A stretch of 40,442 nucleotides of DNA from Cyanobacteriota bacterium (lineage in GTDB: Bacteria > Cyanobacteriota > Cyanobacteriia > PCC-6307 > Cyanobiaceae), in assembly GCA_026389265.1 (NCBI GenBank), contig JAPLIE010000039.1, positions 1-40,442 on the forward strand. Direction: 5' to 3'. Position numbers and translations under genes: made by a program. Positions 13,678 through 36,093 of this stretch are shown here, piece by piece. The first letter of the stretch is position 1. Every line of letters starts with the position of its first letter. Under the pieces are notes generated by a model. It was not told where the DNA came from and made no database searches. It saw only the letters and a list, made by a program, of their open reading frames with translations.

Positions 13678-13879
13678 CGATCGGGGCAAACAGAGGGAGT
13701 GGTCTGGTCGCAGGGATGGGGTTGGTCGTGGTGGCATTCAAGCAACGCCCCTGCGGATTGCCAGCGGGGGAAGTGGTCTGCGGAAACCGGCTTTTGGTAT
13801 CGGCTTTCACTACCTGCAGCACGCCGGTTTCGTTTCACTGGTAGATCAGCTACCGGTTGCGCCCCGTTGCGCCTTCGCC
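13678..13879. promoter_or_regulatory. Divergent promoter region with an inverted repeat at 13837-13857
   Basis: About 200 nt between the CsgG-like gene and the cupin gene. It contains ACTGGTAG-ATCAG-CTACCGGT, an 8-bp-arm inverted repeat with one mismatch, ending 22 nt before the cupin ATG. The position suits an operator or a leader hairpin for the cupin gene. The core looks like GTA-N7-TAC, one base short of the NtcA spacing. Confidence 0.4.
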
Positions 13880-14521: not shown

Positions 14522-16537
14522 TCAGCCCAGGCGCAGGTCGATCGTGGAGTCGTCGCTCCGGCGACGGCCCCGCCAGGGCTGGCCCTGGGGCTCGGCCGCG
14601 GCCTCAGTTTCGGCAAGCAGGGCCGTGCCCTCGGGGTTGAGCAGGAAGGACCTGCCCTCGCCCATGCCGTGCAGGCTGAGCACCAGGGGCAGGTGGGGGG
14701 CAATGACCGGGTGCAGGCAGGGATAGAGGCGCTGCAGCCGGTAGCGCACGGCCAGGGGTGAGCCATCGGTGGGCAGACTCAGGGGACGCCCCGAGAGTCC
14801 CAGCCGCCATTCCCGGCGGAAGGCCGCGTTGGCGGTGATCTCGAAGCGGCGTAGGGAGCCATCCACGAAGCGGCTGGTGAAGCCCCCCTCGCGGGGGAAA
14901 TCACAGATCAGCGGCCAGGGCTCCAGGGCCGGACGCACCTCCAGCTCCGCCACCGCCTCCAGGTCGGACCAGAGGGCACTGGGGAGCAGCATCCGGTCGT
15001 GCAGCTCGCAGCCCCAGTCCCGCAGGGTGCTCGGGCGGTGGCGGCGGTCGAGTAGGTGGGTGGCCAGGGCGCTCCAGAGCAGGGCCACGGCGCTGCTCCA
15101 CTGCACGCTCGGCATACTTTCCAGCGCCCGGAACTCCACCAGCCCTAGGCAGCCGGCGGGGGCGCCGGGGTTCCAGAACTTGTCGAAGCTGATCTCGCTG
15201 CGGTGGTTGTTGCCGCTGCGGTCGGCGTGGAGGTGACGCAGGGTTTCCCCGATCACGCCCCGCTGGTCGGAGCCGGGTTGGTCCGGGCCGCCGCCGTCAT
15301 CGGCCTGCTCGAGGCACCGGTAGGCCAGTTCCAGATCGAAGCAGTCGCCGGCGGCCTCATCGGGCCTTGGCGCCTGGGAGGCCGGACCCACGCAGGCGCC
15401 GCTGAACAGGTAGGCGAGGGACGGATGGTGCTGCCAATAGCGGAGGATGCCAGCCAGCCAGCCGGGCCGCCGGAAGAAGGGATGCTCCTCCAGGCTGGGG
15501 CCGCCCCAGAGGAGGTGGTTGCCGCCGCCGGTGCCCTCCTGCCGGCCATCGAGGTCCTGCTTCCAGCTGCGCAGCCCCACCCGTTCGCCGGCCCGCTCCA
15601 GCAGCCGCAGCCAGCGGTCGTAGTCGGCCCAGCCGTGGCAGATCGGCAGGTTGATCTCCAGCACGCCTGGATCGGCGGTGAGACCGAGCATCTGCCAGTG
15701 ACCTTCCCAGTCCACCGGCAGCATGCCGCTCAGCTGCGGCGCCGCGAGGCCCGTGAGGCTGTCGGCCACGGCCTGCAGCAGGGCGGTGAGGGGGCGGCGG
15801 AAGAGGGGCGGCAGGAAGAGCTCCCAGCCTTCGCCGTCGGTTTCCAGGGTGAGCACCTGGCGGGGCACCCCTTCCGGGAAGTGCTCCAGCGGCAGCCGCA
15901 GGCCCGCAGGGCCGGGGGCGCCACTGAGCTGGCGGAGGCTCTCGTCGAGAGGCCAGGCGGCCGGTAGCCACTGGATCGCTGCCGTGGGGAGGTCGGGATC
16001 GGGCTCGGCGGCGCTGAGGGGCACGGCCCACACCCGCCGGCCGGGATCGAGCGGATCCCGCAGCTCCAGCGGTTCCAGGGCCACCCCCAGCAGCTCCGCC
16101 AACCGGGCCAGCCAGGCGGGACCTGCGGCGGGGGCGAGGGCTGCTCCCGGGGGACTAGCGCCGTCCGCTGCTGGCCACCGCACTGCCGGCTGGCCATCGA
16201 GACCGGTGAACAGGCGCAGGGCCCAGCGCGGGTTCACCTCCCCCTCGTAGCGCTTGCCGGGGCAGTAGAGCAGGGTGCTGCCGGGCCAGGCGGTGCGCTG
16301 CAGCTCCCGGGCCATGGCCCGGGCCATCGGCAGCTTGGTGGGGCCATCGGCCGCCACGCTCCATTCCGCGCCACTCGGCTCAAGGGGCACGTAGGTGGGC
16401 TCGCCCCCCAGGGTGAGCCGGATGCCGGCGGCCTCGAGCCGGCGGTCCACCTCCCCGGCCACCCTCCCCATCCACGCCGGGGTATCGGAGGCGCTGGAGG
16501 CTTGCACCATCGGGGGCACGGACAGGGTGGTGGGCAC
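14522..16537 (-). CDS. DUF2126 putative amidoligase, stand-alone form
   Basis: 671 residues. The start LTLGGEPTYVPLE (residues 41-53), DGPTKLPMARAMARELQ, LYCPGKRYEGEVNPRWAL, the central LEINLPICHGWADYDRWL and the late GLVEFRALESMPS (around 465) are typical of DUF2126, predicted by comparative genomics to be a glutamine-synthetase-like carboxylate-amine ligase. In many bacteria this domain is the C-terminal half of a protein of about 1,100 residues with a transglutaminase N-terminus. Here the two halves are separate genes, and the likely partner transglutaminase lies beyond glgP. It begins 43 nt after glgP, so it may be transcribed with it. Substrate unknown. Confidence 0.8.
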   Translation of the reverse strand: MPTTLSVPPMVQASSASDTPAWMGRVAGEVDRRLEAAGIRLTLGGEPTYVPLEPSGAEWSVAADGPTKLPMARAMARELQRTAWPGSTLLYCPGKRYEGEVNPRWALRLFTGLDGQPAVRWPAADGASPPGAALAPAAGPAWLARLAELLGVALEPLELRDPLDPGRRVWAVPLSAAEPDPDLPTAAIQWLPAAWPLDESLRQLSGAPGPAGLRLPLEHFPEGVPRQVLTLETDGEGWELFLPPLFRRPLTALLQAVADSLTGLAAPQLSGMLPVDWEGHWQMLGLTADPGVLEINLPICHGWADYDRWLRLLERAGERVGLRSWKQDLDGRQEGTGGGNHLLWGGPSLEEHPFFRRPGWLAGILRYWQHHPSLAYLFSGACVGPASQAPRPDEAAGDCFDLELAYRCLEQADDGGGPDQPGSDQRGVIGETLRHLHADRSGNNHRSEISFDKFWNPGAPAGCLGLVEFRALESMPSVQWSSAVALLWSALATHLLDRRHRPSTLRDWGCELHDRMLLPSALWSDLEAVAELEVRPALEPWPLICDFPREGGFTSRFVDGSLRRFEITANAAFRREWRLGLSGRPLSLPTDGSPLAVRYRLQRLYPCLHPVIAPHLPLVLSLHGMGEGRSFLLNPEGTALLAETEAAAEPQGQPWRGRRRSDDSTIDLRLG

Positions 16538-16580: not shown

Positions 16581-19013
16581 TCAGCCGGTGGGGCTCGTCG
16601 GCACCCGCCCAGCTTGCACCGGCACGGGGGTCACTTTCCAGATGCGCTCTGCGTAGTCCTGGATCGAGCGGTCGCTGCTGAAGAAGCCGCAGCGGGCGGT
16701 GTTCAGCGCCGACATCGTGCTCCAGCGCTGGGGATCGCGCCAGGTCTCGTCCACGGAGTTCTGGGCGCGGCGGTAATCGCCGATGTCGGCAATCACCCGG
16801 AAGGGATCGTGGCTGCAGAGGTTGGCGAGCAGGGGGTGGAAGAGGTCCCGGTCGCCTTCACTGAAGTGGCCCGAGCCGATCAGGTCGATCGCTTCCTTGG
16901 CGATCGGGTCGTTTTCCAGCCAGGGCAGGGGGTGATAGCCGTTGCGGTTGATCTCGGCCAGCTGGTCGGCGGTGTGACCGAAGAGGAAGAAGTTGTCCTC
17001 GCCCACCCGCTCGCGGATTTCGATGTTGGCGCCATCGAGGGTGCCGATCGTGAGGGCGCCGTTGAGGGCCATCTTCATGTTGCCGGTGCCGGAGGCCTCC
17101 ATGCCGGCGGTGGAGATCTGCTCGGAGAGGTCCACCGCGGGGTAGATCCGCTGGCCCAGCTTCACGCTGAAGTTGGGCAGGAACACCACCCGCAGCCGGC
17201 CACGCATGGCCGGATCGATGTTCACGATCCCGGCGATGCCCACGATCAGGCGGATGATCAACTTGGCCATGTGGTATCCGGGCGCCGCCTTGCCCCCGAA
17301 GATCACGGTGCGGGGCGGTAGGTCCTCGCCGTTGCAGAGGCGCAGGTAGCGCTCCACGATCTGCAGGGCGGCCAGGTGCTGGCGCTTGTATTCATGGATC
17401 CGCTTCACCTGCACATCGAAGAGGGAGGCGGGGTCCACCAGCACATCGGTGTCCTGGCGGATCGTGGCGGCCAGGCGTTGCTTGCTCTGTTCCCGCACCT
17501 GCTGCCAGCGCTCGAGGAAGGCGCCATCGTGGGCGAGGGGTTCGAGGCCCCGCAGCTGGTCGAGGTTGCGGCGCCAGGTGGTGCCGATGCACTCATCCAG
17601 CAGGGCGGCCAGGCCGGGGTTGGCCACCGCCAGCCAGCGGCGCGGGGTCACGCCGTTGGTCACGTTGGTGAAGCGGTCGGGCCAGAGGGCGGCGAAGTCG
17701 TGGAACACGTTCTCCACCAGCAGCTTGCTGTGCAGTTCGGCCACCCCGTTCACCTGGTGGCTGCCCACCACCGCCAGGTGAGCCATGCGCACCTTGCGTT
17801 GGCCACCTTCCTGGATCAGGGAGAGGCGCTCCAGCAGCTCGGGCTGACCCGGATAGCGGATCCGCACCAGGCGCAGGAAGCGGGCGTTGATCTCGTAGAT
17901 GATTTCGAGCTGGCGCGGCAGCAGCTGGCCGAAGAGCTCAAGGCCCCAGGCCTCGAGGGCCTCGGGGAGCAGGGTGTGGTTTGTGTAGCTGATCGCCGCA
18001 GTGGTGATGCTCCAGGCGGTGTCCCACTCGACACCGTGCCCATCGATCAGCAGTCGCATCAACTCCGCCACGGCGATGGCGGGGTGGGTGTCGTTGAGCT
18101 GTACCGCAAACTTGTGGTGGAACTCGGTGGGGGCCATGCCCTGGCCCTTGAGAATGCGGAACATGTCCTGCAGGGAGCAGGACACGAAGAAGATCTGCTG
18201 GCTGAGGCGCAGCCGCTTGCCCTGCTCCATCTCGTCGTTGGGATAGAGCACCTTGGAGAGGGTTTCCGATTGCACTTTCTGCAGCACGGCTCGGGTGTAA
18301 TCGCCGGCGTTGAAGGAGGCGAAATCGAAGGCATCCGGCGCCTGGGCACTCCACAGCCGCAAGGTGTTGGCGGTGTGCACGCCGCAGCCGAGGATCGGGG
18401 TGTCGTGGGCCACGCCGATCACGGTGTGGCCGCCGATTTCCACCGGGTAGCGCCATTCCGGCCGGATCACCTCCCAGGGGTTGCCGCGGGCCAGCCAGGG
18501 GTCGGTGCTTTCCTGCTGGCCCTCCGGTCCGATCTGCTGGCGGAAGATCCCGAATTCGTAGCGGATGCCGTAGCCGATGGCGGGGAGCTCCAGCGTGGCC
18601 ATTGATTCCTGGAAGCAGGCCGCCAGCCGGCCCAGACCGCCGTTGCCCAGGCCGGGCTCCGGCTCCTCCGCGATCAGTTCCTCCATGGAGAGCCCGAGGG
18701 ACCTGCAGGCTTCCTGGGCCTCGGCGTGGATGCCGAGATTCACCAGGTTGTTTTCCAGGTGGGGCCCGAGCAGGTATTCCGCCGAGAGATAGGTGGCGGT
18801 GCGCACATGGGCGCGGGTATAGGTCTCGGCGGTGTCGACCCAGTACTGCAGCAGGCGGTCGCGTACCGCCAGGGCCAGGCTGAGGTAGTAGTCGTGGCGG
18901 GTGGCCAGGGAGGGGGATTTGGCCTGGGAGGAAAAAAGGTGGTGGCGCATCGCGCCCAGCAGACCGCCCTGCCCATGGGGCGAAAGGCTGGTGGCGGTGG
19001 AGGGGGTATCCAT
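16581..19013 (-). CDS. glgP: Glycogen/alpha-glucan phosphorylase
   Basis: About 810 residues. Releases glucose 1-phosphate from the non-reducing ends of glycogen, with pyridoxal phosphate. Recognisable segments are YLSAEYLLGPHLENNLVNLG, EPGLGNGGLGRLAACF, GYGIRYEFGIFRQ, NDTHPAIAVAELMR, the VKRIHEYKRQ segment and the cofactor lysine region EASGTGNMKMALNGALTIG. Length matches bacterial GlgP. The start is uncertain: I chose the ATG giving MDTPSTATS; ATG 19049 and TTG 19079 are alternatives and none has a good ribosome site. It is unusual that this gene sits inside an otherwise coherent ATP-grasp/transglutaminase/amidoligase run. Confidence 0.95.
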   Translation of the reverse strand: MDTPSTATSLSPHGQGGLLGAMRHHLFSSQAKSPSLATRHDYYLSLALAVRDRLLQYWVDTAETYTRAHVRTATYLSAEYLLGPHLENNLVNLGIHAEAQEACRSLGLSMEELIAEEPEPGLGNGGLGRLAACFQESMATLELPAIGYGIRYEFGIFRQQIGPEGQQESTDPWLARGNPWEVIRPEWRYPVEIGGHTVIGVAHDTPILGCGVHTANTLRLWSAQAPDAFDFASFNAGDYTRAVLQKVQSETLSKVLYPNDEMEQGKRLRLSQQIFFVSCSLQDMFRILKGQGMAPTEFHHKFAVQLNDTHPAIAVAELMRLLIDGHGVEWDTAWSITTAAISYTNHTLLPEALEAWGLELFGQLLPRQLEIIYEINARFLRLVRIRYPGQPELLERLSLIQEGGQRKVRMAHLAVVGSHQVNGVAELHSKLLVENVFHDFAALWPDRFTNVTNGVTPRRWLAVANPGLAALLDECIGTTWRRNLDQLRGLEPLAHDGAFLERWQQVREQSKQRLAATIRQDTDVLVDPASLFDVQVKRIHEYKRQHLAALQIVERYLRLCNGEDLPPRTVIFGGKAAPGYHMAKLIIRLIVGIAGIVNIDPAMRGRLRVVFLPNFSVKLGQRIYPAVDLSEQISTAGMEASGTGNMKMALNGALTIGTLDGANIEIRERVGEDNFFLFGHTADQLAEINRNGYHPLPWLENDPIAKEAIDLIGSGHFSEGDRDLFHPLLANLCSHDPFRVIADIGDYRRAQNSVDETWRDPQRWSTMSALNTARCGFFSSDRSIQDYAERIWKVTPVPVQAGRVPTSPTG

Positions 19014-19178
19014 GGCGCTGCCGGGCGGATCGGGGATTGGTGCCTTCATCCTGCGGAACGGGGGGGCTTGCTGCACCAATGGATACCGGCTGCACCAGCT
19101 TTATGGGGGCTTCCGGTTCGGTCCGAACGTTTTGGCAGGGTCGGTGGCGATCGCAGCCCATCCTTGGAGAGAAAGCTG

Positions 19179-24696: not shown

Positions 24697-26325
24697 CTAA
24701 AGCAGGAAATACCGCTGCGCCATCGGCAGCACCTCCGCCGGTTCACAGGTAAGCAGTTCGCCGTTTGCGAACACTTCATAGGTTTGGGGATCCACCTCCA
24801 CCTTGGGCAGGGCGCCGTTGTTGCGCATCGAGGCCTTGCCGATGGCGCGCGTGTTCACCACCGGCACGCACGGACGCCGTAGGCCGAGGCTGCGGGGTAG
24901 GTCGGCATCGAGGGCTGCCTGGCTCACAAAGGTGAGGCAGCTCGGCGCCAGCGCTGCTCCGAAGGCCGCGAACATCGGCCGGCCGTGCACCGGACCCGGG
25001 GTGGGAATCGAAGCGTTGGCATCGCCCATCTGGGCCCACACGATCGAGCCCCCCTTGATCACAAGCTCCGGCTTAACCCCAAAAAATCCAGGCTTCCACA
25101 GCACCAGATCCGCCAATTTACCCACCTCCACCGACCCCACCTGGCTGTCGATGCCGTGGGCGATGGCAGGGTTGATCGTGACCTTGGCGATGTAGCGCTT
25201 CAGGCGCGTGTTGTCGTTGCGGCTGGAATCCTCGCTCAGGCTGCCCCGCTGCACCTTCATCTTGTGGGCCGTCTGGAAGGTGCGGATGATCACCTCTCCC
25301 ACCCGGCCCATCGCCTGGGAATCACTGGCGATGATGCTGAAGGCCCCCAGGTCGTGGAGGATGTCCTCGGCGGCAATCGTTTCGCGGCGGATGCGCGATT
25401 CAGCGAAGGCCACATCCTCCGGAATGCGCGGATCGAGGTGGTGGCACACCATCAGCATGTCGAGGTGCTCCTCCAGCGTATTGTGCGTGTAGGGGCGCGT
25501 GGGGTTGGTGCTGCTCGGCAGCACGTTGGCCTCCCCGCAGATCTTGATGATGTCCGGCGCGTGGCCGCCGCCGGCCCCTTCGGTGTGGAACGTGTGGATG
25601 GTGCGGCCGCCGATGGCGCGGATCGTGTCCTCCACGAAGCCCGCCTCGTTGAGGGTGTCGGTGTGGATGCACACCTGCACATCGAAGCGATCCGCCACTG
25701 AGAGGCAGCAGTCGATCGCTGCCGGGGTGGTGCCCCAGTCTTCATGGAGCTTGAGGGCGCAGGCGCCGGCGGCCTGGAGCATGCGGGCCAGGTGGAAGGC
25801 GCCCGGGGTGCAGGTGGTGGCATTGGTGCCGGTGGCCGGGCCGGTTCCGCCTCCCATCAGCGTGGTGACACCACTGGAGAGGGCCGTTTCGATCTGTTGG
25901 GGGCAAATGAAGTGGATGTGGGTGTCGATCGCGCCGGCGGTCAGGATGTGGCCCTCGCCGGCGATCGCCTCGGTGCCCGGGCCGACCACGATGTCCACGC
26001 CGCTCTGGATATCGGGGTTGCCTGCCTTGCCGATCGCCACGATCCGGCCATCCCGCAGACCGATGTCGGCCTTCACGATCCCCCACCAGTCGAGGATCAA
26101 TGCATTGGTGATCACCGTGTCCACGGCGCCGCCGGCCCGGGTGGTCTGGGCCTGACCCATGCCATCGCGAATCACCTTGCCGCCGCCGAACTTCACCTCA
26201 TCGCCATAGACGGTGTAATCCTTCTCCACCTCCAGGAACAGCTCGGTGTCGGCCAGTCGCAGCCGGTCGCCGGTGGTGGGCCCGTAGGTCTGGGCGTAGG
26301 CCTGGCGGGAGATGCGGTAGGGCAT
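24697..26325 (-). CDS. ureC: Urease subunit alpha UreC with a 27-residue internal deletion
   Basis: Catalytic subunit of urease, which hydrolyses urea to ammonia and carbamate at a di-nickel site. Metal ligands are all present: His136 and His138 (IDTHIH), Lys192 (LKLHEDW, the carbamylated lysine, 217 in Klebsiella), His194, His221 (CIHTDTLNE), His247 (IHTFHTEG) and Asp335 (SDSQAMGR); the catalytic His295 is in MVCHHLD. The protein is 542 residues instead of about 569. All the shortfall falls at [16 protein letters not shown] (junction at 25767/25768), where standard ureases have 27 more residues including a NIGLLGKGN-type barrel strand and the following helix. The frame is preserved. The enzyme may be inactive, altered, or the sequence may be wrong. 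It ends the ureDABC run. Confidence 0.93.
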
Positions 26326-26368: not shown

Positions 26369-26686
26369 TCAATCCAGCGGGCCGTTGATCAGCCCGTTGA
26401 AGCCGAACACCCGCCGGGCGCCGGCGAAGGGCACCAGCTGCACCTCGCGGCTGTCGCCCGGTTCGAAGCGGATCGCTGTTCCCGCCGGGATGTCGAGCCG
26501 CAGGCCGCGGGCCGCCTCCCGATTGAAGTGGAGCGCCGGGTTGGCCTCGTGGAAGTGGAAGTGGGAACCCACCTGCACGGGCCGATCGCCCGTGTTGGCC
26601 ACCGTGAGGATGGTGATCGGCCGGCCGGCATTGAGTTCAAGGTCGCCGGGTTCGGGGATGAGTTCGCCGGGGATCAGGGGGGACAT
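26369..26686 (-). CDS. ureB: Urease subunit beta
   Basis: 105-residue structural subunit. Characteristic motifs are [61 protein letters not shown] and a C-terminal [15 protein letters not shown]. Length is normal for a separate beta subunit. It lies 13 nt after ureA and 43 nt before ureC and is complete, unlike ureC. Confidence 0.96.
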
Positions 26687-26699
26687 GGCTGGTGTGGGA

Positions 26700-27002
26700 T
26701 CAGCGGATCGGGTCGTGCAGGGTCACCAACTTGGTGCCATCGGGGAACACCGCCTCGATCTGCACGTCATGGATCAGCTCCGGCACCCCCTCCATCACTT
26801 GGTGCCGCCCCAGCCAGGTGGACCCTGCTGCCATCAGCTCGGCCACCGTGCGGCCATCGCGGGCCCCCTCCAGCACCTGGAAGCTCAGCCAGGCCACGGC
26901 TTCGGGGTGGTTGAGCTTCAGGCCCCGGTTGAGGCGGCGTTCCGCCAGCAGGGCGGCGGTCACGATCAGGAGCTTGTCCTTTTCCTGGGGGGTGAGGTGC
27001 AT
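26700..27002 (-). CDS. ureA: Urease subunit gamma
   Basis: 100-residue structural subunit that assembles with UreB and UreC into the urease trimer of trimers. It shows [44 protein letters not shown], the [33 protein letters not shown] stretch and normal length. It is separated from ureD by 97 nt, in which I see no obvious terminator. Confidence 0.97.
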
Positions 27003-27099: not shown

Positions 27100-28521
27100 T
27101 CAGCGCCGATCGGCCAGGGTCCGGGCTTGCCCGGCCGCCCCAGCGGCCTCCAGTCCTGCGAAGGGTCTTTCCTGGAAGGGCCACACCCGTGGCAGCTCCG
27201 GCGCCGCCAGCCCCTGGGCTGCCCGGATCCGGGCCCATAGCCGGGTGAACCAGCTGCGGGCCGCCGTGCTCGAGGGGCCCCGGTAGCGCGCCACCAGCCC
27301 CTGTTCCAAGGCGCCGCAGGCCATCGTGCCCTCCAGGCCGGAGCGATCGCCGCGGCAGACCTCCACCAGCTCAGCCAATTCAGCCCCCGCCAGCTTCCGG
27401 GGCGCCACCCAAACCAGCGAGCCGAACACCGGTTCCCCCGCCAGCCCGTGGGCCTCTACCAGGGAGCTGCCCCCCAGTTCCAGGCGATCCACCAGCTCCC
27501 AGCGGTCGCCGCCGGGATCGCGGCGTCGGATCTCCAGCAGGGACCGCCAGCGACCGGCTCCGAGGCTTTCCCCGGCCGCCGTTCGGCCCAGCCGCACCAG
27601 CTCCGCCCCCAGCCAGCCGGCTCCGGGGGCCAGGTTCACCCGGGTGCGTTGTTCGTAGAGACCTTCGCCATACACCACCAGTTCCTGGGGAAGCCATTCC
27701 AGGTCGGCGCCCTCCTCCAGCTGGAAGGCCAGCTCCTGCAGCGCCCAGGCGCCTTCGGGGCGGAGCCGGGAGCGTCCGATCGTGCCATACACCTTCTGGG
27801 CCGCCACGCTGGTGAGCAAGGCCCGGCTTCCGGGCTCCAGGTGAACCGTGATGCTCAGCTGGTCGCCTCCCACCAGGCCGCCGGCTGTGTGGAGCAACGG
27901 CAGTTCACAGCGGCCATCGGCCCGGTTGAAGCCCCGCTGGATCTTCAGCGGGGCGCTGGCGCTGCCCTGGTGGCGGCTGAGGCCATCGCCACCGCGGCTG
28001 AAGCGCAGGCTGGCGCGGCCATGCCAGCTGTCGGATCCGGCGCTGGGGGCCTGGTCGGTGGCCATGAAAGCCGTTGCTTCGGCGTTTGCCTTGGCGCTCG
28101 CTTCGCTGCTCGCCTCTCTGGTTGCTTCGTGGCTCACTCCACAGCTCGCGTCGGCAATGGCTTCGTTCCTTGGTTCGCTGATTCCTTGAGCGCTCGCTCC
28201 GCTGCTCGGTTTGCTGTTTGCTTCGGTACTGGCTTCGCTGCTCGCTTCAGCGCTCGGATTGTTTCTCGCCTTACTGCTCACGTCACGGCTTGCTGGGGCA
28301 CTTGCTTCGCTGCTCGCTTCGCCTCTGGATTCCCTGCCTAACTCGCCGCCTTCCAGCGCTTGCTGGCGCCGCTCTGCTGGGCTGTCCGCAGCCGAGGCGG
28401 CCTGGCCGCTGTCAGGGTCGCCACTCCAATCCGGTGCCCTGCGCTCCACGTTCACCCCTGCGGCCGCCACACTCTGGTGGGTCATGCCTCCGGGAGCCAG
28501 CCGCCTTGCCTGAATCCGCAT
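27100..28521 (-). CDS. ureD: Urease accessory protein UreD with long low-complexity N-terminal extension
   Basis: UreD binds apo-urease with UreF and UreG during nickel insertion. The core (from about residue 165, SWHGRASLRFSRGG) has GGLVGGDQLSITVHLEPGSRALLTSVAAQKVY and LEWLPQELVVYGEGLYEQRT, typical for the family. Total length is 473 residues, against about 280-320 normally. Residues 65-150 are low-complexity serine/alanine/glutamate sequence (EASSEASAPAS, AEASSEASTEAN, EASSEASAKANAEA) encoded by short DNA repeats. The first ATG has a plausible ribosome site (TGAGG, 7-8 nt upstream). The internal ATG at 28065, which would give a normal 321-residue UreD, has none. The long start overlaps the proposed ureE start head to head. 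Confidence 0.87.
   Translation of the reverse strand: MRIQARRLAPGGMTHQSVAAAGVNVERRAPDWSGDPDSGQAASAADSPAERRQQALEGGELGRESRGEASSEASAPASRDVSSKARNNPSAEASSEASTEANSKPSSGASAQGISEPRNEAIADASCGVSHEATREASSEASAKANAEATAFMATDQAPSAGSDSWHGRASLRFSRGGDGLSRHQGSASAPLKIQRGFNRADGRCELPLLHTAGGLVGGDQLSITVHLEPGSRALLTSVAAQKVYGTIGRSRLRPEGAWALQELAFQLEEGADLEWLPQELVVYGEGLYEQRTRVNLAPGAGWLGAELVRLGRTAAGESLGAGRWRSLLEIRRRDPGGDRWELVDRLELGGSSLVEAHGLAGEPVFGSLVWVAPRKLAGAELAELVEVCRGDRSGLEGTMACGALEQGLVARYRGPSSTAARSWFTRLWARIRAAQGLAAPELPRVWPFQERPFAGLEAAGAAGQARTLADRR
28100..28317. repeat. Degenerate short-repeat tract with three perfect 14-bp copies
   Basis: GCTTCGCTGCTCGC occurs perfectly at 28100-28113, 28232-28245 and 28304-28317, with many partial copies (GCTTCG, GCTCGC) in between. 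The tract encodes the Ser/Ala/Glu-rich extension of UreD on the minus strand. It looks like expansion of a short repeat and may vary in length between strains. Confidence 0.75.
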
Positions 28522-29105
28522 CCGGGCCCCTCACCCTCACCCAGCGCTCCAGCACGCCGCCGGCCGGCGCATCGGAACCGGGGCTGCGTCTCTCCCTCGG
28601 CGCCGATGAGCGCACCCGGCTGCGCGGCCATCGCCGTAGCGCCTGCGGTCGTGATCTGCTGCTGCACTTGGAGCGCGGCGAGCCGCTGCAGCCGGGCGAA
28701 TGGCTCAGTGGTGCGCCCGGCGATCCGCCGGTGCGGGTGGAGGCGGCCGCTGAGCCTCTGCTGGTGGTGCGTGCCAGCGACCCCCTCGACCTGCTGCGGG
28801 CGGCCTATCACCTCGGCAACCGCCATGTGGCGTTGGAGGTGTGCGCCGGGGAGCTGCGGCTGCTTGAGGATTCGGTGCTGGCCGATCTGCTGGAGCAGCG
28901 GGGGCTGGAGCTGATGCGCCGCCTGGCTCCCTTCCTGCCGGAGGCCGGGGCCTATGCCGCTGCAGGCGGCCACCGGCATGACGATGGCCACGAGCACGAC
29001 CACGAACAGGTTCACGGCTTGGATCACGGCCAAGGGCAGGGTTACCGGCATGGCCCCGACCAGGCCCACGACCTCGCCCACTCTGATCACCCCACCCATG
29101 GCTGA
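28506..29105 (+). CDS. ureE: Urease accessory protein UreE (nickel chaperone)
   Basis: About 199 residues from a TTG start with a GGGAG ribosome site 9 nt upstream; no ATG or GTG fits the N-terminus. The N-terminal domain (LTLTQRSSTPPAG) is followed by the metal-binding domain LVVRASDPLDLLRAAYHLGNRHVALEV, which contains the conserved GNRH motif, and LEDSVLADLLEQRGL. The last 45 residues are histidine-rich (HRHDDGHEHDHEQVHG and more), a nickel-binding tail. UreE delivers nickel to UreG. It is the first gene of ureEFG, overlaps ureF by 8 nt, and is divergent from ureDABC. Confidence 0.88.
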   Translation: MPESASGPLTLTQRSSTPPAGASEPGLRLSLGADERTRLRGHRRSACGRDLLLHLERGEPLQPGEWLSGAPGDPPVRVEAAAEPLLVVRASDPLDLLRAAYHLGNRHVALEVCAGELRLLEDSVLADLLEQRGLELMRRLAPFLPEAGAYAAAGGHRHDDGHEHDHEQVHGLDHGQGQGYRHGPDQAHDLAHSDHPTHG

Positions 29106-29826
29106 CTCCCCGCCCATGGAGGCCGCCCCGGCCCTCGCCCCTGGGGAGGCGCGCCTGCGGTTGTACCAGCTGGTGAGTCCCGCCCTGCCGGTGGGGGCCT
29201 TCAGCTACTCCGAGGGTCTCGAATGGCTGGTGCAGCAGGGCAGACTCCCCAATGGGGCGGCGGTGCGTGCCTGGCTGGAGGCCGAATGCCGCGCCGGTGT
29301 GCTCCCCATTGAGGCCGCCAGCCTGCCGGAGCTGATGCATCTGTTGCGGCGGGCTTGCGGGGATGGCCCCGGTGCTCGCGACGCCGCCCTGGCGGTGCGG
29401 GAGCAGGACAACTGGCTCCTGGCCCAGCGGGAGGCGCCCGAGTTGCGGGCCCAGCAGCGCCAGATGGGGGGGTCTCTCGGCCAGTTGCTGACGGATCTGG
29501 GCTGGCCCCCGCCGGCGGATGCGGCCCCCCTGGCCTGGACCGCCGCCTGGGCCTGGGCGGGCCTGTGCCTGGAGATCCCGCCCGCTGAGCTGGTGGAGGC
29601 TTACCTCTACGCCTGGACCGCCAGCCAGCTCAGCGCCGCCGTGCGGCTGGTGCCCCTGGGGCCCACCGAGGCCCAGCGGCTGCAGCTGGCCCTGGCCCCT
29701 GGCCTGGCCCGCCGCGCCCGGGAGCTTGTCGCCAACGATCCCCGCAGGCTCTGGAATGGTGGCGTGGGCGCGGGTCTGGCCCAGTTGGGCCATGGGGAGC
29801 TCTACTCGCGCTTGTTCCGCAGTTAA
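29098..29826 (+). CDS. ureF: Urease accessory protein UreF
   Basis: 242 residues from the ATG giving MADSPPMEAAP; a second ATG at 29116 is possible. Typical motifs are LYQLVSPALPVGAFSYSEGLEW near the N-terminus, and later LYAWTASQLSAAVRLVPLG. UreF works with UreD and UreG on apo-urease and modulates the UreG GTPase. The start overlaps the end of ureE by 8 nt, which suggests coupled translation. Confidence 0.93.
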   Translation: MADSPPMEAAPALAPGEARLRLYQLVSPALPVGAFSYSEGLEWLVQQGRLPNGAAVRAWLEAECRAGVLPIEAASLPELMHLLRRACGDGPGARDAALAVREQDNWLLAQREAPELRAQQRQMGGSLGQLLTDLGWPPPADAAPLAWTAAWAWAGLCLEIPPAELVEAYLYAWTASQLSAAVRLVPLGPTEAQRLQLALAPGLARRARELVANDPRRLWNGGVGAGLAQLGHGELYSRLFRS

Positions 29827-29985
29827 AGCACTGCTGGCATCGACCAACGACGCCGGCTTCCCAGCCGGGAGCCTTCCGGGCTGAGCGCGGCGATGGGCGG
29901 TTGTTGCGGCCCGGTGCTGAAGCGAGCGCCGGGCCTCCTTAGCCTGACCCTATCGGCAGGACATCAGCCGGGAGGAGCGGTCGCC

Positions 29986-30633
29986 ATGAGCAAGCTGCGG
30001 GTTGGGGTGGCCGGGCCGGTGGGTTCCGGCAAGACGGCGTTGGTGGAGGCCCTCTGCCGGCGGCTGCGGGATCGCCTGGAGCTGGCGGTGGTCACCAACG
30101 ACATCTACACCCAGGAGGATGCCCAGTTCCTCACCCGGGCCGGAGCCCTTGAGCCTGAGCGCATCCGGGGCGTTGAAACGGGGGGCTGCCCCCACACCGC
30201 CATTCGCGAGGACTGTTCGATCAACCGGGCTGCCGTGGCGGAGCTGGAGGCGGCCTTCCCGGCCCTCGATCTGGTGCTGGTGGAAAGCGGCGGCGACAAC
30301 CTGGCCGCCAGCTTCAGCCCAGAGCTCGTGGATCTCTGCATCTACGTGATCGATGTGGCCGCCGGCGACAAGATCCCCCGCAAGGGCGGCCCCGGCATCA
30401 CCCGCTCCGACCTGCTGGTGATCAACAAGATCGACCTGGCTCCCATGGTGGGCGCCTCCTTGGCGGTGATGGAGCACGACACCCTCCGCATGCGGGCCGG
30501 GCGGCCGTGGTGCTTCACCAACCTCCGCAGCGGCGAGGGGCTGGAGGCGGTGGAGGCTTTTCTGCTGCGGCAGTTGCCGCCGGCCGGGGCGCTCGATGGG
30601 CAGGTGGATGATCTGGGGCGCGCTGGTTGCTGA
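29986..30633 (+). CDS. ureG: Urease accessory GTPase UreG
   Basis: 215-residue GTPase that powers nickel insertion. The P-loop is GPVGSGKT, the metal-binding Cys-Pro-His motif is in [17 protein letters not shown], and the guanine-specificity segment is VINKIDLAP. The ATG at 29986 has a good ribosome site (GGAGGAG, 9-10 nt upstream); the open frame from 29893 is upstream sequence. It is 159 nt downstream of ureF, a gap in which I see no gene. Confidence 0.96.
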
Positions 30634-30783: not shown

Positions 30784-32109
30784 ATGCACCCCTCGGCGAT
30801 TCGGAAGCCCTCGCTTCGTCTGATCGGTGGAGCCACGGCCCTCGCCACCTCCCTCTCTCTGGTTGCCTGCGGCGGCGGTGGTGGAGGGGCACCTACCGCC
30901 AGCGGTGGCGGTGATGCCACCGGCGGCAACTTTGATGGCGAAGTGAAGGTGGGCATCCTCCACTCCCGCTCCGGCACCATGGCCATCTCCGAAAACACGG
31001 TGGCCGAAGCCGAGCTGATGGCGATCGATGAGATCAACAAGGCCGGTGGCGTGGCGATCGACGGCAAGAAACTCAAGATCGTGCCGATCGAAGAAGACGG
31101 AGCCTCCGACTGGCCCACCTTCGCCGAGAAATCTAAGAAGCTGATCGATCAGGACAAGGTGGCCGTGGTGTTCGGCGGTTGGACCTCCGCCAGCCGCAAA
31201 GCCATGCTGCCGGTGTATGAGTCGAAGGATGCCTTCCTCTACTACCCGATCCAGTACGAAGGCCAGGAGTGCTCCAAAAACATCTTCTACACCGGTGCCA
31301 CCCCCAACCAGCAGGCAGAGCCCGCCGTGGAGTGGCTGCTGAAGAACAAGGGTAAGGACTTCTTCCTGGTCGGCTCCGACTACGTGTATCCCCGCACGGC
31401 CAACACGATCATCAAGGAGCAGCTCAAGGCCCAGGGCGGCAAGCTGGTGGGTGAGGACTACCTCCCCCTCGGTAACACCGAGGTGGCGCCGATCATCGCC
31501 AAGATCAAGCAGGCCCTGCCCAAGGGTGGTGTGATCGTGAACACGCTGAACGGCGACAGCAACGTGGCGTTCTTCAAGCAGATGAAGGCCGCCGGCATCA
31601 CCCCCGCCAATGGCTACGCGATCATGAGCTTCTCGATCGCCGAAGAGGAAATCGCCGCCATCGGTCCCGAGTACCTGGAAGGCACCTACGCCGCCTGGAA
31701 CTTCTTCCAGAGCCTCGACACACCCGCCTCCAAGAAGTTCACCGCCGACTTCAAGGCCAAGTACGGCGCCCAGCGGGTCACCAACGACCCGGCTGAGGCC
31801 GCCTACACCATGGTGTACCTCTGGAAGCTGGGCGCCGAGAAGGCCAACAGCGTTGACGACAACAAGGTGCGCGACGCCCTACCTGGCGTGAGCTTCGATG
31901 CCCCCGAGGGCAAGGTGACCGTGCAGCCCAACCACCACATCGAGAAGCTCGTGTTGATCGGCGAGGTGCAGAAGGATGGCATGTTCAAGATCCTCGAGAA
32001 CAAGGGCTTCGTGAAGCCCGTGGCCTGGAACCAGTTCGTGCCCGAAACCAAGGGCTACACCTGCGACCACACCCAGAAGCGTCCCGACGCCGGCAAGTTC
32101 AAGCTCTGA
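30784..32109 (+). CDS. urtA: Urea ABC transporter substrate-binding lipoprotein UrtA
   Basis: 441 residues. The N-terminus is a lipoprotein signal with the lipobox LVAC (cysteine 29) followed by a glycine-rich linker. The mature protein is a branched-chain-amino-acid-type binding protein with VGILHSRSGTMAISE, VFGGWTSASRKAMLPV, LYYPIQYEGQECSKNIFYTGA and GSDYVYPRTANTI, all typical of UrtA. It captures urea for the UrtBCDE transporter. It follows ureG, so urea capture and hydrolysis genes are adjacent. A terminator-like hairpin lies downstream. Confidence 0.96.
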   Translation: MHPSAIRKPSLRLIGGATALATSLSLVACGGGGGGAPTASGGGDATGGNFDGEVKVGILHSRSGTMAISENTVAEAELMAIDEINKAGGVAIDGKKLKIVPIEEDGASDWPTFAEKSKKLIDQDKVAVVFGGWTSASRKAMLPVYESKDAFLYYPIQYEGQECSKNIFYTGATPNQQAEPAVEWLLKNKGKDFFLVGSDYVYPRTANTIIKEQLKAQGGKLVGEDYLPLGNTEVAPIIAKIKQALPKGGVIVNTLNGDSNVAFFKQMKAAGITPANGYAIMSFSIAEEEIAAIGPEYLEGTYAAWNFFQSLDTPASKKFTADFKAKYGAQRVTNDPAEAAYTMVYLWKLGAEKANSVDDNKVRDALPGVSFDAPEGKVTVQPNHHIEKLVLIGEVQKDGMFKILENKGFVKPVAWNQFVPETKGYTCDHTQKRPDAGKFKL

Positions 32110-32138
32110 ATTTCAGCCTCCACGCTGATTGCCTTAAT

Positions 32139-32164
32139 GGGGGGGACCCAGATCCCCCCTTTTT
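32139..32164 (+). terminator. Terminator-like hairpin between urtA and urtB
   Basis: A G-run of seven, GGGGGGG, and a C-run of six, CCCCCC, can pair across the spacer ACCCAGAT, followed by five T. It lies 29 nt after the urtA stop and 37 nt before urtB. Partial termination here would make more binding protein than permease while letting some transcripts continue. Confidence 0.75.
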
Positions 32165-32201
32165 CTTTTGATCCTTTGTTGTCCCGCCGGCGCGGGTCAC
32201 C

Positions 32202-33359
32202 ATGACAGCTCTTTTCGACACGCTCTTCAACGGGCTGGCCATCGGCTCGGTGCTGATGCTCACCGCCCTCGGTCTGGCCGTGGTGTTCGGCCTGATGGGT
32301 GTCATCAACATGGCCCATGGCGAGTTGATGATGCTCGGCGCCTACACCACCTTCGTGGTGCAGAACCTGCTCAAATCCGGCCCGCTGCAAGCTCTGTTCC
32401 CGATCTACATCCTTCTCTCCATTCCGATCGCATTTCTGGTCAGCGGCCTGGTGGGCCTGCTGCTCGAAAAAACGGTGATCCGTCGCCTCTACGGCCGGCC
32501 ACTGGAAACCCTGCTGGCCACCTGGGGGGTGAGCCTGATCCTGCAGCAGTTTGTGCGATCGGTGTCCACGGCCTTCTTCCTCGGCCTGCTGGCCGCCGTA
32601 GCCCTCGGCCTGCTGGCCCCCCGCTTCACCCCGGCCGCCTTGTGGCGCCAGCGCTGGACGCCGCTGCTGAAGGTGGGCAATTGGATTTTGGCCCTGATCG
32701 TTGGGATCGCTCTGGGCTCCTTGCTGGGTGAGCAGCGGGCTCTGCACCAGCCCTGGTTCAGCGCTCGCAACATCGACGTGACCGCCCCCGAGTGGCTGCG
32801 AGGCTCGATTGATCTGGGCGGGGTCACCATGCCCACCGCCCGCTTGTTCATCCTCGCCCTCACCGCTCTTGCCTTGGTGGGGGTCAACTGGTTCCTGCAA
32901 AAGAGCGCCTGGGGGATTCGGATCCGTGCGGTCACCCAGAACCGCTCGATGAGCAGCTGCCTCGGCATTCCCACCGAAACGGTGGATGCCCTCACCTTCT
33001 TCGTGGGGTCTGGCCTGGCGGGCATCGCTGGCGTGGCGGTGTCCCTGCTGGGTTCGGTGGGTCCGAACCTCGGCGGTAACTACATCGTGCTGGCCTTCAT
33101 GGTGGTGGTGCTCGGAGGCCTCGGCAAGCTCTGGGGCACGGTGGTGGCCGCCTTTGTGCTCGGCATTCTCGATTACGTGATCGGCTCCGGATCGTTGCTG
33201 CTGCTGTGGCCTTCGATGCCGGCCGCCCTCAATGGCGTGATCAGCTTCTTCGCCACCACCTCGATGGCCAAGGTTCTCGTGTTTGTGTTGATCATGGTGT
33301 TTTTGCAGTTCCGACCGGCGGGGATGTTCCCGCAGAAGGGCCGCATGGTGGAGGCCTGA
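32202..33359 (+). CDS. urtB: Urea ABC transporter permease UrtB
   Basis: 385-residue inner-membrane permease of the branched-chain-amino-acid class. Hydrophobic helices span the protein, with LGLAVVFGLMGVINMAHGELMMLGAY near the N-terminus, a family hallmark, and RAVTQNRSMSSCLGIPTETVDAL and LGGLGKLWGTVVAAFVLG near the C-terminus. It pairs with UrtC to form the urea channel. Only 3 nt separate it from urtC. Confidence 0.96.
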   Translation: MTALFDTLFNGLAIGSVLMLTALGLAVVFGLMGVINMAHGELMMLGAYTTFVVQNLLKSGPLQALFPIYILLSIPIAFLVSGLVGLLLEKTVIRRLYGRPLETLLATWGVSLILQQFVRSVSTAFFLGLLAAVALGLLAPRFTPAALWRQRWTPLLKVGNWILALIVGIALGSLLGEQRALHQPWFSARNIDVTAPEWLRGSIDLGGVTMPTARLFILALTALALVGVNWFLQKSAWGIRIRAVTQNRSMSSCLGIPTETVDALTFFVGSGLAGIAGVAVSLLGSVGPNLGGNYIVLAFMVVVLGGLGKLWGTVVAAFVLGILDYVIGSGSLLLLWPSMPAALNGVISFFATTSMAKVLVFVLIMVFLQFRPAGMFPQKGRMVEA

Positions 33360-33362
33360 TTC

Positions 33363-34538
33363 ATGTCCGTTTCCGCCACACCGCCCGCCTTTGTTCGCCG
33401 TTGGTGGCCCTGGATCCTGATTGTGGCGGCCGCCCTGATCCTGCCGGTGATCCTGCCTCCCTTCCGGCTCAATCTGCTGGGCCGTTTTCTATCCCTTGGC
33501 ATTGTGGCTCTGGGTGTGGACCTGATTTGGGGTTACACCGGCCTGCTCAGCCTCGGCCAAGGCATCTTCTTTGCCCTCGGTGGCTATGCCCTCGGCATGC
33601 ATCTTTCGCTCAATAGCCTTGAACCCGGTCAGTTGCCGGAGTTCTTCGGTTTGTATGGCGTGAACAGTTTGCCGGCTTTTTGGCAGCCGTTCACATCACC
33701 GCTGTTCACCCTGGCGGCCATCTGGGTGATTCCGGCTCTGGTGGCTGGAATCCTTGGATTTCTGGTTTTCCGCAACCGCATCAAGGGGGTGTATTTCTCG
33801 ATCCTCACCCAGGCAGCCCTGCTGGTGTTCTTCAATTTCTTCAATGGCCAGCAGAAACTGATCAACGGCACCAACGGTCTCAAGACCGACACCGCCAAGG
33901 TGTTCGGGGCGCTGGTGGGTTCTGATGCCATGCAGCGCAACCTCTTCTGGCTCACCGTGCTGCTGGTGATCGCGGCCTGGCTGCTCTGCCGCTGGCTCAC
34001 CAGCGGTCGCTTTGGCGATGCCCTAGTGGCCATCCGCGACGACGAACCCCGCATGCGCTTCACCGGTTACAACCCCACCGCCTACAAGACGTTGGTGTTC
34101 ACCGTGGCGGGAGCCCTGGCCGGTATCAGCGGCGCTCTGTACACCGTGCAATCCGGCATCATCAGCCCCCAGTTCATGGCGGTGCCCTTCTCGATCGAGA
34201 TGGTGATCTGGGTGGCGGTGGGGGGCCGCGGCACCCTGCTGGGGGCCGTGCTGGGGGCCGTGCTGATCAATTACGCCAAAAGCCTGATCAGCGAACAGCT
34301 TCCCGAAACTTGGCTGTTCGTGCAGGGGGCCCTGTTCCTGCTGGTGGTGACGGCCCTGCCCGATGGGTTAGTGGGCTGGTGGCGCCAAGGGGGCCCGGGC
34401 CACATCCTGGCCATGTTCGGCTGGCCGCCCCGCAGCGCCACCTATCCCGGCCTCGACCTCGATCCTTCGATGTTGGCCGAGCGTGAAGCCCTTGAGGGCC
34501 CGTCTTCCTCTGATTCCGCCAGAGGAGGTGAGCGATGA
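33363..34538 (+). CDS. urtC: Urea ABC transporter permease UrtC
   Basis: 391-residue second permease. It contains LGVDLIWGYTGLLSLGQGIFFALGGYALG, the LivM-type hallmark, RDDEPRMRFTGYNPTAYK in the cytoplasmic loop, and VGGRGTLLGAVLGAVLIN. Several membrane helices are visible throughout. The stop overlaps the urtD start by 4 nt (ATGA). Confidence 0.96.
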   Translation: MSVSATPPAFVRRWWPWILIVAAALILPVILPPFRLNLLGRFLSLGIVALGVDLIWGYTGLLSLGQGIFFALGGYALGMHLSLNSLEPGQLPEFFGLYGVNSLPAFWQPFTSPLFTLAAIWVIPALVAGILGFLVFRNRIKGVYFSILTQAALLVFFNFFNGQQKLINGTNGLKTDTAKVFGALVGSDAMQRNLFWLTVLLVIAAWLLCRWLTSGRFGDALVAIRDDEPRMRFTGYNPTAYKTLVFTVAGALAGISGALYTVQSGIISPQFMAVPFSIEMVIWVAVGGRGTLLGAVLGAVLINYAKSLISEQLPETWLFVQGALFLLVVTALPDGLVGWWRQGGPGHILAMFGWPPRSATYPGLDLDPSMLAEREALEGPSSSDSARGGER

Positions 34539-35338
34539 CCACTCTGCTCGAACTGCGCGGCGTGAGCGTTAGCTTCGATGGCTTTCTCGCCCTCAACGAT
34601 CTCAACCTCAGCCTCCAACCCGGTGAGCTGAGGGCGGTGATCGGTCCGAATGGTGCCGGAAAGACTACCTTTCTCGATGTGATCACCGGCAAGGTGCGCC
34701 CCACCCAGGGCGATGTGTTCTTCCGGGGGCGTTCCCTGGTGGGTACCAGCGAACATCGCATCGCCCGGCTCGGCATCGGCCGCAAGTTCCAGACCCCCCG
34801 CGTCTATCAGAACCTCACGGCTCGCCGCAACCTGGAGCTGGCGGTCAGCGATCGCTCCCCCTTCGATCTGCTCTTCCGCGGCCTCGATGGCAGCAGCCAG
34901 GATCGGGTGGCCCAGCTGCTCAAGGTGGTGGGCCTGGCGCCCCAAGCCCAGCAGCTGGCCGGTGGCCTCTCCCATGGCCAGAAGCAGTGGCTGGAGATCG
35001 CCATGCTGTTGGCTCAGGATCCTGATCTGCTGCTGGTGGATGAACCGGTGGCGGGTCTTTCCGATGAGGAAACGGAGCGCACCGGCGAGCTGCTGCGCAG
35101 CCTGGCGGGGGATCACACCGTGCTGGTGATCGAGCACGACATGGAGTTCATCCGCAACCTTGACAGTCCGGTCACGGTGCTGCATGAGGGCCATGTGCTC
35201 TGTGAGGGCAGCATGGAGGCGGTGCAGAGCGATCCCCGCGTGATTGATGTGTATCTCGGCGTTGACGATGACTTGGAGCCTGGAATCGCCCCGCCCTCCG
35301 GCCTTCCCGATCGCCCGTCCAGTGAGCTGCAGCCATGA
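34535..35338 (+). CDS. urtD: Urea ABC transporter ATP-binding protein UrtD
   Basis: 267-residue LivG-type ATPase. Motifs: Walker A GPNGAGKTT, signature LSHGQKQWLEIAM, Walker B LLLVDEPVAGLS and the switch region VIEHDMEFIRNL. The C-terminal tail (about the last 25 residues, proline-rich) is beyond the ATPase fold. Overlaps of 4 nt with both urtC and urtE indicate a tightly coupled operon. Confidence 0.96.
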   Translation: MTTLLELRGVSVSFDGFLALNDLNLSLQPGELRAVIGPNGAGKTTFLDVITGKVRPTQGDVFFRGRSLVGTSEHRIARLGIGRKFQTPRVYQNLTARRNLELAVSDRSPFDLLFRGLDGSSQDRVAQLLKVVGLAPQAQQLAGGLSHGQKQWLEIAMLLAQDPDLLLVDEPVAGLSDEETERTGELLRSLAGDHTVLVIEHDMEFIRNLDSPVTVLHEGHVLCEGSMEAVQSDPRVIDVYLGVDDDLEPGIAPPSGLPDRPSSELQP

Positions 35339-36093
35339 CCGTGATCACCACCCCCCCATCCCTGGCCCATCCCTGCCACGAAGGCGGCGATCTTCTCGGC
35401 ATTCGCAACTTGAATGTGTATTACGGCGAAAGCCACATCCTGCGCAATGTCGATCTCTCGATTGCGCCCGGCCAGATGGTGTGCCTGATCGGCCTCAATG
35501 GGGTCGGCAAGACCACCCTGCTCAAGTCGATCATCGGCCTGTTGCAGCAGCGCAGTGGCACCATCGTGCTAGCTGGAGCGGATATCTCCTCCCAGCCCCC
35601 CCATCAGCGGGCCCGCGGTGGTATCGGCTACGTGCCCCAGGGGCGAGAGATCATCGCCCAGCTCACCGTGCGAGAAAATCTCCTTCTGGGTCTGGAGGCC
35701 CAGCCCGGTGGCATCACTCGCAACCGTCACATCGATCCGCTGGTGTTTGAGCTGTTCCCGGTGCTGGAGAAGTTCCTCAATCGGCGGGGCGGCGACCTTT
35801 CCGGCGGTCAGCAGCAACAGCTGGCGATTGCCCGGGCCCTCCTCGGCAAGCCCCGCCTGCTGCTGCTCGATGAGCCCACCGAAGGCATCCAGCCCTCCGT
35901 GGTGCTCGACATCCAGCGGGCCGTGGCCCGCATCATCCGCGAGACGGGTATCAGTGTGCTGTTGGTGGAACACCACGCCAGCTTCGTGCGCCAGGCTGAT
36001 TGGTATTACGCCATGCAGAAGGGTGGTGTGGTGGCCAGCGGCCCCACCAGCGAGCTGAGCAAGGAAGTAATCCAGCGCTTCCTGAGCGTCTGA
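35335..36093 (+). CDS. urtE: Urea ABC transporter ATP-binding protein UrtE
   Basis: 252-residue LivF-type ATPase, the second motor of the urea transporter. Motifs: NLNVYYGESHILRNVDLS at the start of the domain, Walker A GLNGVGKTT, signature DLSGGQQQQLAIARAL and Walker B LLLLDEPTEGIQPS. It begins on the ATGA overlap with urtD and is the last gene of urtABCDE. An N-terminal extension of about 20 residues (MTVITTPPSLAHPCHEGGD) precedes the usual ATPase start. Confidence 0.96.
   Translation: MTVITTPPSLAHPCHEGGDLLGIRNLNVYYGESHILRNVDLSIAPGQMVCLIGLNGVGKTTLLKSIIGLLQQRSGTIVLAGADISSQPPHQRARGGIGYVPQGREIIAQLTVRENLLLGLEAQPGGITRNRHIDPLVFELFPVLEKFLNRRGGDLSGGQQQQLAIARALLGKPRLLLLDEPTEGIQPSVVLDIQRAVARIIRETGISVLLVEHHASFVRQADWYYAMQKGGVVASGPTSELSKEVIQRFLSV

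Follow-up and report, generated by a model that had tools for sequence, protein, structure and literature searches.

The urease alpha-subunit gene (ureC) of the cyanobacterial draft genome under study (G000) is assembled with an in-frame gap of 81 nt that is very probably an artefact of the genome assembly, because similar clean gaps hit the essential genes rpsC and murF in the same draft. Judging from the sequence comparisons, the gap is present in the sequence file and most likely absent from the organism. A preliminary description of this DNA had offered three readings, i.e., a recent deletion by slippage, a truly altered barrel and an assembly error. The last is the best supported, since rpsC, murF and further genes of this draft are likewise broken by clean deletions.

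The gene is located on the minus strand at positions 24697-26325 of the window (the whole stretch of 40,442 nucleotides that was analysed) and consists of one open frame. As assembled it codes for 542 aa, which is 27 residues too few. The product exceeds the cut-offs of two curated families, NF009686 (984 bits, cut-off 354) and TIGR01792 (911 bits, cut-off 680), and is thus a member of the urease alpha subunit family. A search across the draft itself found no second ureC, the gene being present in a single copy. In a phmmer comparison with UreC of Klebsiella aerogenes, the query aligned as two pieces, with the query numbered +2 relative to the K. aerogenes chain before the gap and -25 after it, and with 27 residues absent in frame directly after MLQAA. 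The offsets claimed in the preliminary description were thereby reproduced, and the in-frame loss of 27 residues was borne out both by this numbering and by DNA alignment, where the 81-nt gap appears at the join against all six relatives aligned (two of which also have a small gap elsewhere). By alignment to G023, the closest relative found in this analysis, the 81 nt are absent between 25771 and 25772 (minus strand). Should the missing bases have been like those of the three relatives that carry a 5-bp repeat at the edges, the join may be placed as far along as about 25766/25767, so that the range 25767-25772 allows a 5-base slide, and the position first proposed, 25767/25768, was correct within a few bases of slide. 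The nickel ligands of K. aerogenes urease, given in extracts of PMC7433671 as His134, His136, Lys217, His246, His272 and Asp360, map to H136, H138, K192, H221, H247 and D335 of the short protein. The six columns, including the position of the carbamylated lysine, are all invariant in an alignment of 38 sequences, in agreement with the earlier statement that all metal ligands had been retained.

The neighboring genes are those of a urease and urea-transport locus. On the minus strand are found ureB (beta subunit, 26369-26686, NF009682), ureA (gamma subunit, 26700-27002, NF009712) and ureD (27100-28521, PF01774 at residues 209-418), the last with a long low-complexity N-terminal part. On the plus strand are the open frames containing ureE (28218-29105, PF05194, with PF02814 below its cut-off) and ureF (28954-29826, PF01730 at residues 101-248), both of uncertain start position, followed by ureG (29893-30633, TIGR00101) and the urea transporter genes urtABCDE (30784-36093; TIGR03407, TIGR03409, TIGR03408, TIGR03411 and TIGR03410). 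Two length differences from G023, both in frame, were observed within this locus. A low-complexity stretch rich in Glu, Ala and Ser in the N-terminal part of ureD (28114-28342), built on a degenerate 12-bp repeat, exceeds its counterpart by about 228 bp, and the His-rich tail at the end of the ureE frame (28990-29105) is about 90 bp longer. His-rich tails of the ureE kind bind nickel.

The protein resembles other picocyanobacterial UreC (NF009686, TIGR01792), with 96% and 97% protein identity to that of G023 on either side of the gap, and the locus shares with picocyanobacterial urease loci the same neighbor genes and the same ligands. The difference lies in the 27 residues that it has less than the relatives for which both flanks were found. 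We used the short UreC as a probe, which is expected to match an intact relative twice but only once where the gap is shared. Matches were obtained in 39 of the 42 genomes of the genus search, and the flanks were separate in all the genus mates where both sides were seen (33/33). Of 386 genomes sampled across the phylum the probe matched 170 and, judged by the number of matches per genome, a single strong match occurred in G000 alone, while in two others of the 170 the single match was weak (E about 6e-4). The missing segment is present in the 37 other UreC loci of the protein alignment, which took in 37 of the 80 loci returned by the homologue search. A short UreC specific to the clade was therefore rejected, with no case among the 33 genus mates and none besides G000 among the 170 matching phylum genomes. 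A short form common to close relatives, as had been envisaged earlier, is contradicted by the same 33 genomes.

Outside the gap, ureC does not look dead. Crude parsimony counts, in which codons 364 and 457 were scored on both branches, gave 42 synonymous versus 6 nonsynonymous changes on the G000 branch and 16 versus 6 on the G023 branch. The gene thus appears constrained and a decaying ureC was rejected, nonsynonymous change not being in excess on these counts. Constraint of this kind would mean either that the gap is very young, or that the protein still works, or that the organism itself does not carry the gap. The first would correspond to a real, recent deletion of 81 bp that removed strand 3 and helix 3 of the barrel and left an inactive urease in a urea pathway otherwise maintained, which we consider improbable. 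An otherwise intact and constrained gene is what a very young loss would leave, and the ureF frame, where synonymous and nonsynonymous changes are equal in number on the G000 branch (12 each) but 15 and 6 on that of G023, could hint at relaxed constraint. However, nonsynonymous change is not in excess in ureA, ureB, ureG or the transporter genes, which look constrained, and the counts of ureF, whose start is uncertain, and of ureD, swamped by its low-complexity part, say little and are not clear evidence. The ureC join also resembles clean deletions that destroy needed genes in the same assembly.

These deletions, of 55, 98, 142 and 155 bp, interrupt genes that are uninterrupted in G023. The first affects rpsC, coding for ribosomal protein S3 (NCBIfam match above cut-off), with the join at 18711-18712 of stretch L231, on contig 21 of G000 (55 bp). 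Among 12 further genomes, 11 have S3 unbroken and one, G007, gave no match, whereas in G000 it occurs at one locus, in two frames, and this is the sole copy found. In the same way, murF (NCBIfam match above cut-off) is cut by a 155-bp deletion at 12388-12389 of L237, on contig 27, and appears in G000 at one locus in two frames, the other matches being weak paralogues. It is open and free of flagged stops in six of eight genus mates (G001, G002, G003, G006, G007 and G008, where a single open frame was matched in one piece or in two), while G004 has one flagged TGA and G005 weak paralogues only. An MsbA-like exporter (NCBIfam match below cut-off) has lost 98 bp at 3965-3970 of L155, on contig 5, at a join with a divergent right flank, and is split in G000 and intact in 8/8 genus mates. 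A gene with weak similarity to FAD-dependent oxidases has lost 142 bp at 13051-13052 of L253; among 14 other genomes of the genus, three have it whole, one has it with a single stop, nine show weak matches and one shows none. In G000 the piece is absent, yet an open frame of 512 aa runs through, and the loss of frame is deduced from the gap length alone.

S3 and MurF are indispensable to any living cell. As both are broken in the draft, some of its deletions must be assembly errors, and the same kind of join as that of ureC is found in these two genes. None of the four other deletions is divisible by three, unlike the 81 bp of ureC, and one in-frame deletion among five is close to the expectation by chance. 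Claims of gene loss from the G000 assembly consequently need read support.

The comparison with G023 covered, besides the window, another 60 stretches of G000 contigs (671,637 bases, including 21,039 N) and 62 stretches of G023 (1,223,710 bases), itself a draft with N gaps. A total of 158,330 bases of G000, window included, aligned to G023 with a mean identity of 92.4%. Of the ten runs of N in the sampled G000, nine span entire contigs and one is a block of 4,000 bases, presumably sequence that was withheld, and no scaffold gap was found remaining in the 60 sampled stretches and the window. The contigs go down to 1,510 bases and follow no size order, a pattern that seems to resemble that of a metagenome bin. 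We also counted the frames of each genome that were split across several frames in the other, which were 12/97 in the G023-to-G000 direction versus 7/102 for G000 frames in G023. This points in the right direction, but the frames were picked mechanically, many do not correspond to real genes, and gaps that keep the frame, like the one in ureC, escape the count. As a proof of artefact the plain count was discarded, and we relied on rpsC and murF. The formal tally of large gaps is one-directional, covering deletions of G000 versus G023 only; stretches present in G000 and absent in G023 were seen in L155 (96 and 105 bp), in L253 (63 bp) and in the window near 19149, 28116 and 28990, the last two being those already described for ureD and ureE.

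The anatomy of the joins provides a second line of comparison. Against G023, microhomology was zero at all five (ureC, rpsC, murF, exporter and oxidase-like), i.e., they are blunt. A run of 140 bp identical to G023 (25631-25770) ends within one base of the ureC join, and four of the five joins, ureC among them, are adjoined by identical runs of 140–232 bp (random-position P 0.0008–0.006 each), compared with a median of 20 bp and a 99th percentile of 125 bp at random positions, although the runs are the best of several offsets and thus slightly flattering. The run at the murF join was not unusual (P 0.31), nor were those at four further gaps outside the five (P 0.24–0.69). Recombination with DNA of a G023-like strain could also have produced real deletions, through homology at one end and an illegitimate join at the other, and the identical runs at four of the five joins are what such events would be expected to leave. 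We regard such an origin as extremely improbable, as it would have had to break the sole copies found of rpsC and murF.

The preliminary description had leaned to slippage, with GC-rich repeats at the flanks. The ends of the ureC gap show a direct repeat of 5 bp in three of the six relatives (L146, L147 and L148) and of 0 bp in the other three (L149, L150 and L144, the latter being G023). In one relative's stretch, 1.5% of random 81-bp deletions have a 5-bp end repeat. Slippage between CAGGCCGCC-type repeats was considered less likely, the repeat being seen in half of the relatives and missing in the nearest one. For the real deletion considered above, the repeat in three of six relatives speaks in favor and the blunt join against G023 speaks against. 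This repeat and the conserved frame of ureC also count against the artefact, as do the G000 frames found split in G023 (7/102).

A second in-frame gap, of about 99–102 bp, was observed in the window at 14940-14960, in a conserved DUF2126 gene that in G000 is without 33 residues. Across this spot the gene is in one piece in 12 of 14 other genomes of the genus, cut by contig ends in one and unmatched in another. Repeats of some 13 bp can be read by eye near the ends of this gap, and the exact fit leaves 1 bp of microhomology. It could possibly be an artefact of the same kind or a real slippage, and on account of its repeats it was kept out of the five joins. Also left out were gaps near 3912 of L253 (140 bp, 3 bp microhomology) and at 13702-13706 of the window (116 bp versus G023), where no gene was established, as well as those near 2453 of L262 (771 bp) and near 16992 of L249 (not clean).

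To return to the assembly artefact, a plausible sequence of events can be proposed. The assembly may have broken at the identical runs, read as sequence common to two closely related strains of one sample, and the pieces would then have been joined across the break with the bases in between dropped, for example by closing a scaffold gap to nothing, which would fit the lack of scaffold gaps in the sampled G000. The organism would in that case possess an ordinary full-length urease, the frame in ureC having been kept by a one-in-three chance. Local assembly errors that give incorrect protein-coding genes have been described for metagenome-assembled genomes (extracts of PMC7111523). The likeness lies in a consensus with incorrect genes and in errors of assembly and scaffolding, the types listed in these extracts being unsupported consensus, Ns inserted although the sequences overlap, incorrect numbers of repeats and chimeric joins. 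In its main text the word “deletion” does not appear, and the blunt loss of 55–155 bp beside sequence shared by strains is our own description.

What the short protein lacks can be seen in the AlphaFold model of an intact homologue, that of Synechococcus sp. 8F6 (L031), the best-ranked homologue match, taken as a control. Between the edges of the gap lie a strand (192-198) and a helix (204-212), in agreement with the loss of a strand plus the next barrel helix claimed earlier. They are strand 3 and helix 3 of the barrel, and the unit immediately precedes the strand carrying the nickel-bridging lysine. The standard UreC barrel, which consists of eight alpha/beta units, is thus incomplete as assembled. 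The model of the short form had a mean pLDDT of 64.0 and a pTM of 0.74, versus 80.0 and 0.87 for the control, the input alignments being comparable but shallow (38 and 37 rows, respectively). Residues 155-175, before the join, fell below 50 in the short form only; residues 272-343 did so as well, in a region where the control is also partly weak (303-325 and 330-339). The lower confidence is only suggestive, but speaks against a working barrel, and would also suit a real deletion with a dead enzyme.

One could still imagine a functional urease with a barrel of seven units, having lost one strand-helix unit and closed up the rest around an intact dinickel site. The cut takes exactly one strand and one helix, the frame and all six nickel ligands are kept, and L157M, one of five changed codons, is on the neighboring strand 2. 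Nevertheless, we give this very little credence. No relative with both sides of the gap seen has such a barrel, the lost segment holds N192, K198, G199 and N200, invariant in the 37 other sequences, and model confidence falls below that of the control. The altered but working barrel of the preliminary description is for these reasons not favored. In the literature found on urease in picocyanobacteria or on urease structure, as far as its accessible parts go, no shortened UreC is named, and none was found linking urease alpha subunit, deletion and TIM barrel. Overall, a deletion truly in the cell, nearly always as a dead urease, appears unlikely, although not negligibly so.

Were the deletion real and the enzyme working, the loss of an entire unit from a conserved barrel would make a striking case. 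The example calls for caution, as a lone in-frame deletion seems meaningful until the same assembly is checked at genes such as rpsC and murF, a check that requires only a close relative and is widely usable on draft genomes. For this cyanobacterium, the comparison of sequences indicates that the gap in ureC is most likely neither a real feature of the organism nor a new kind of enzyme.
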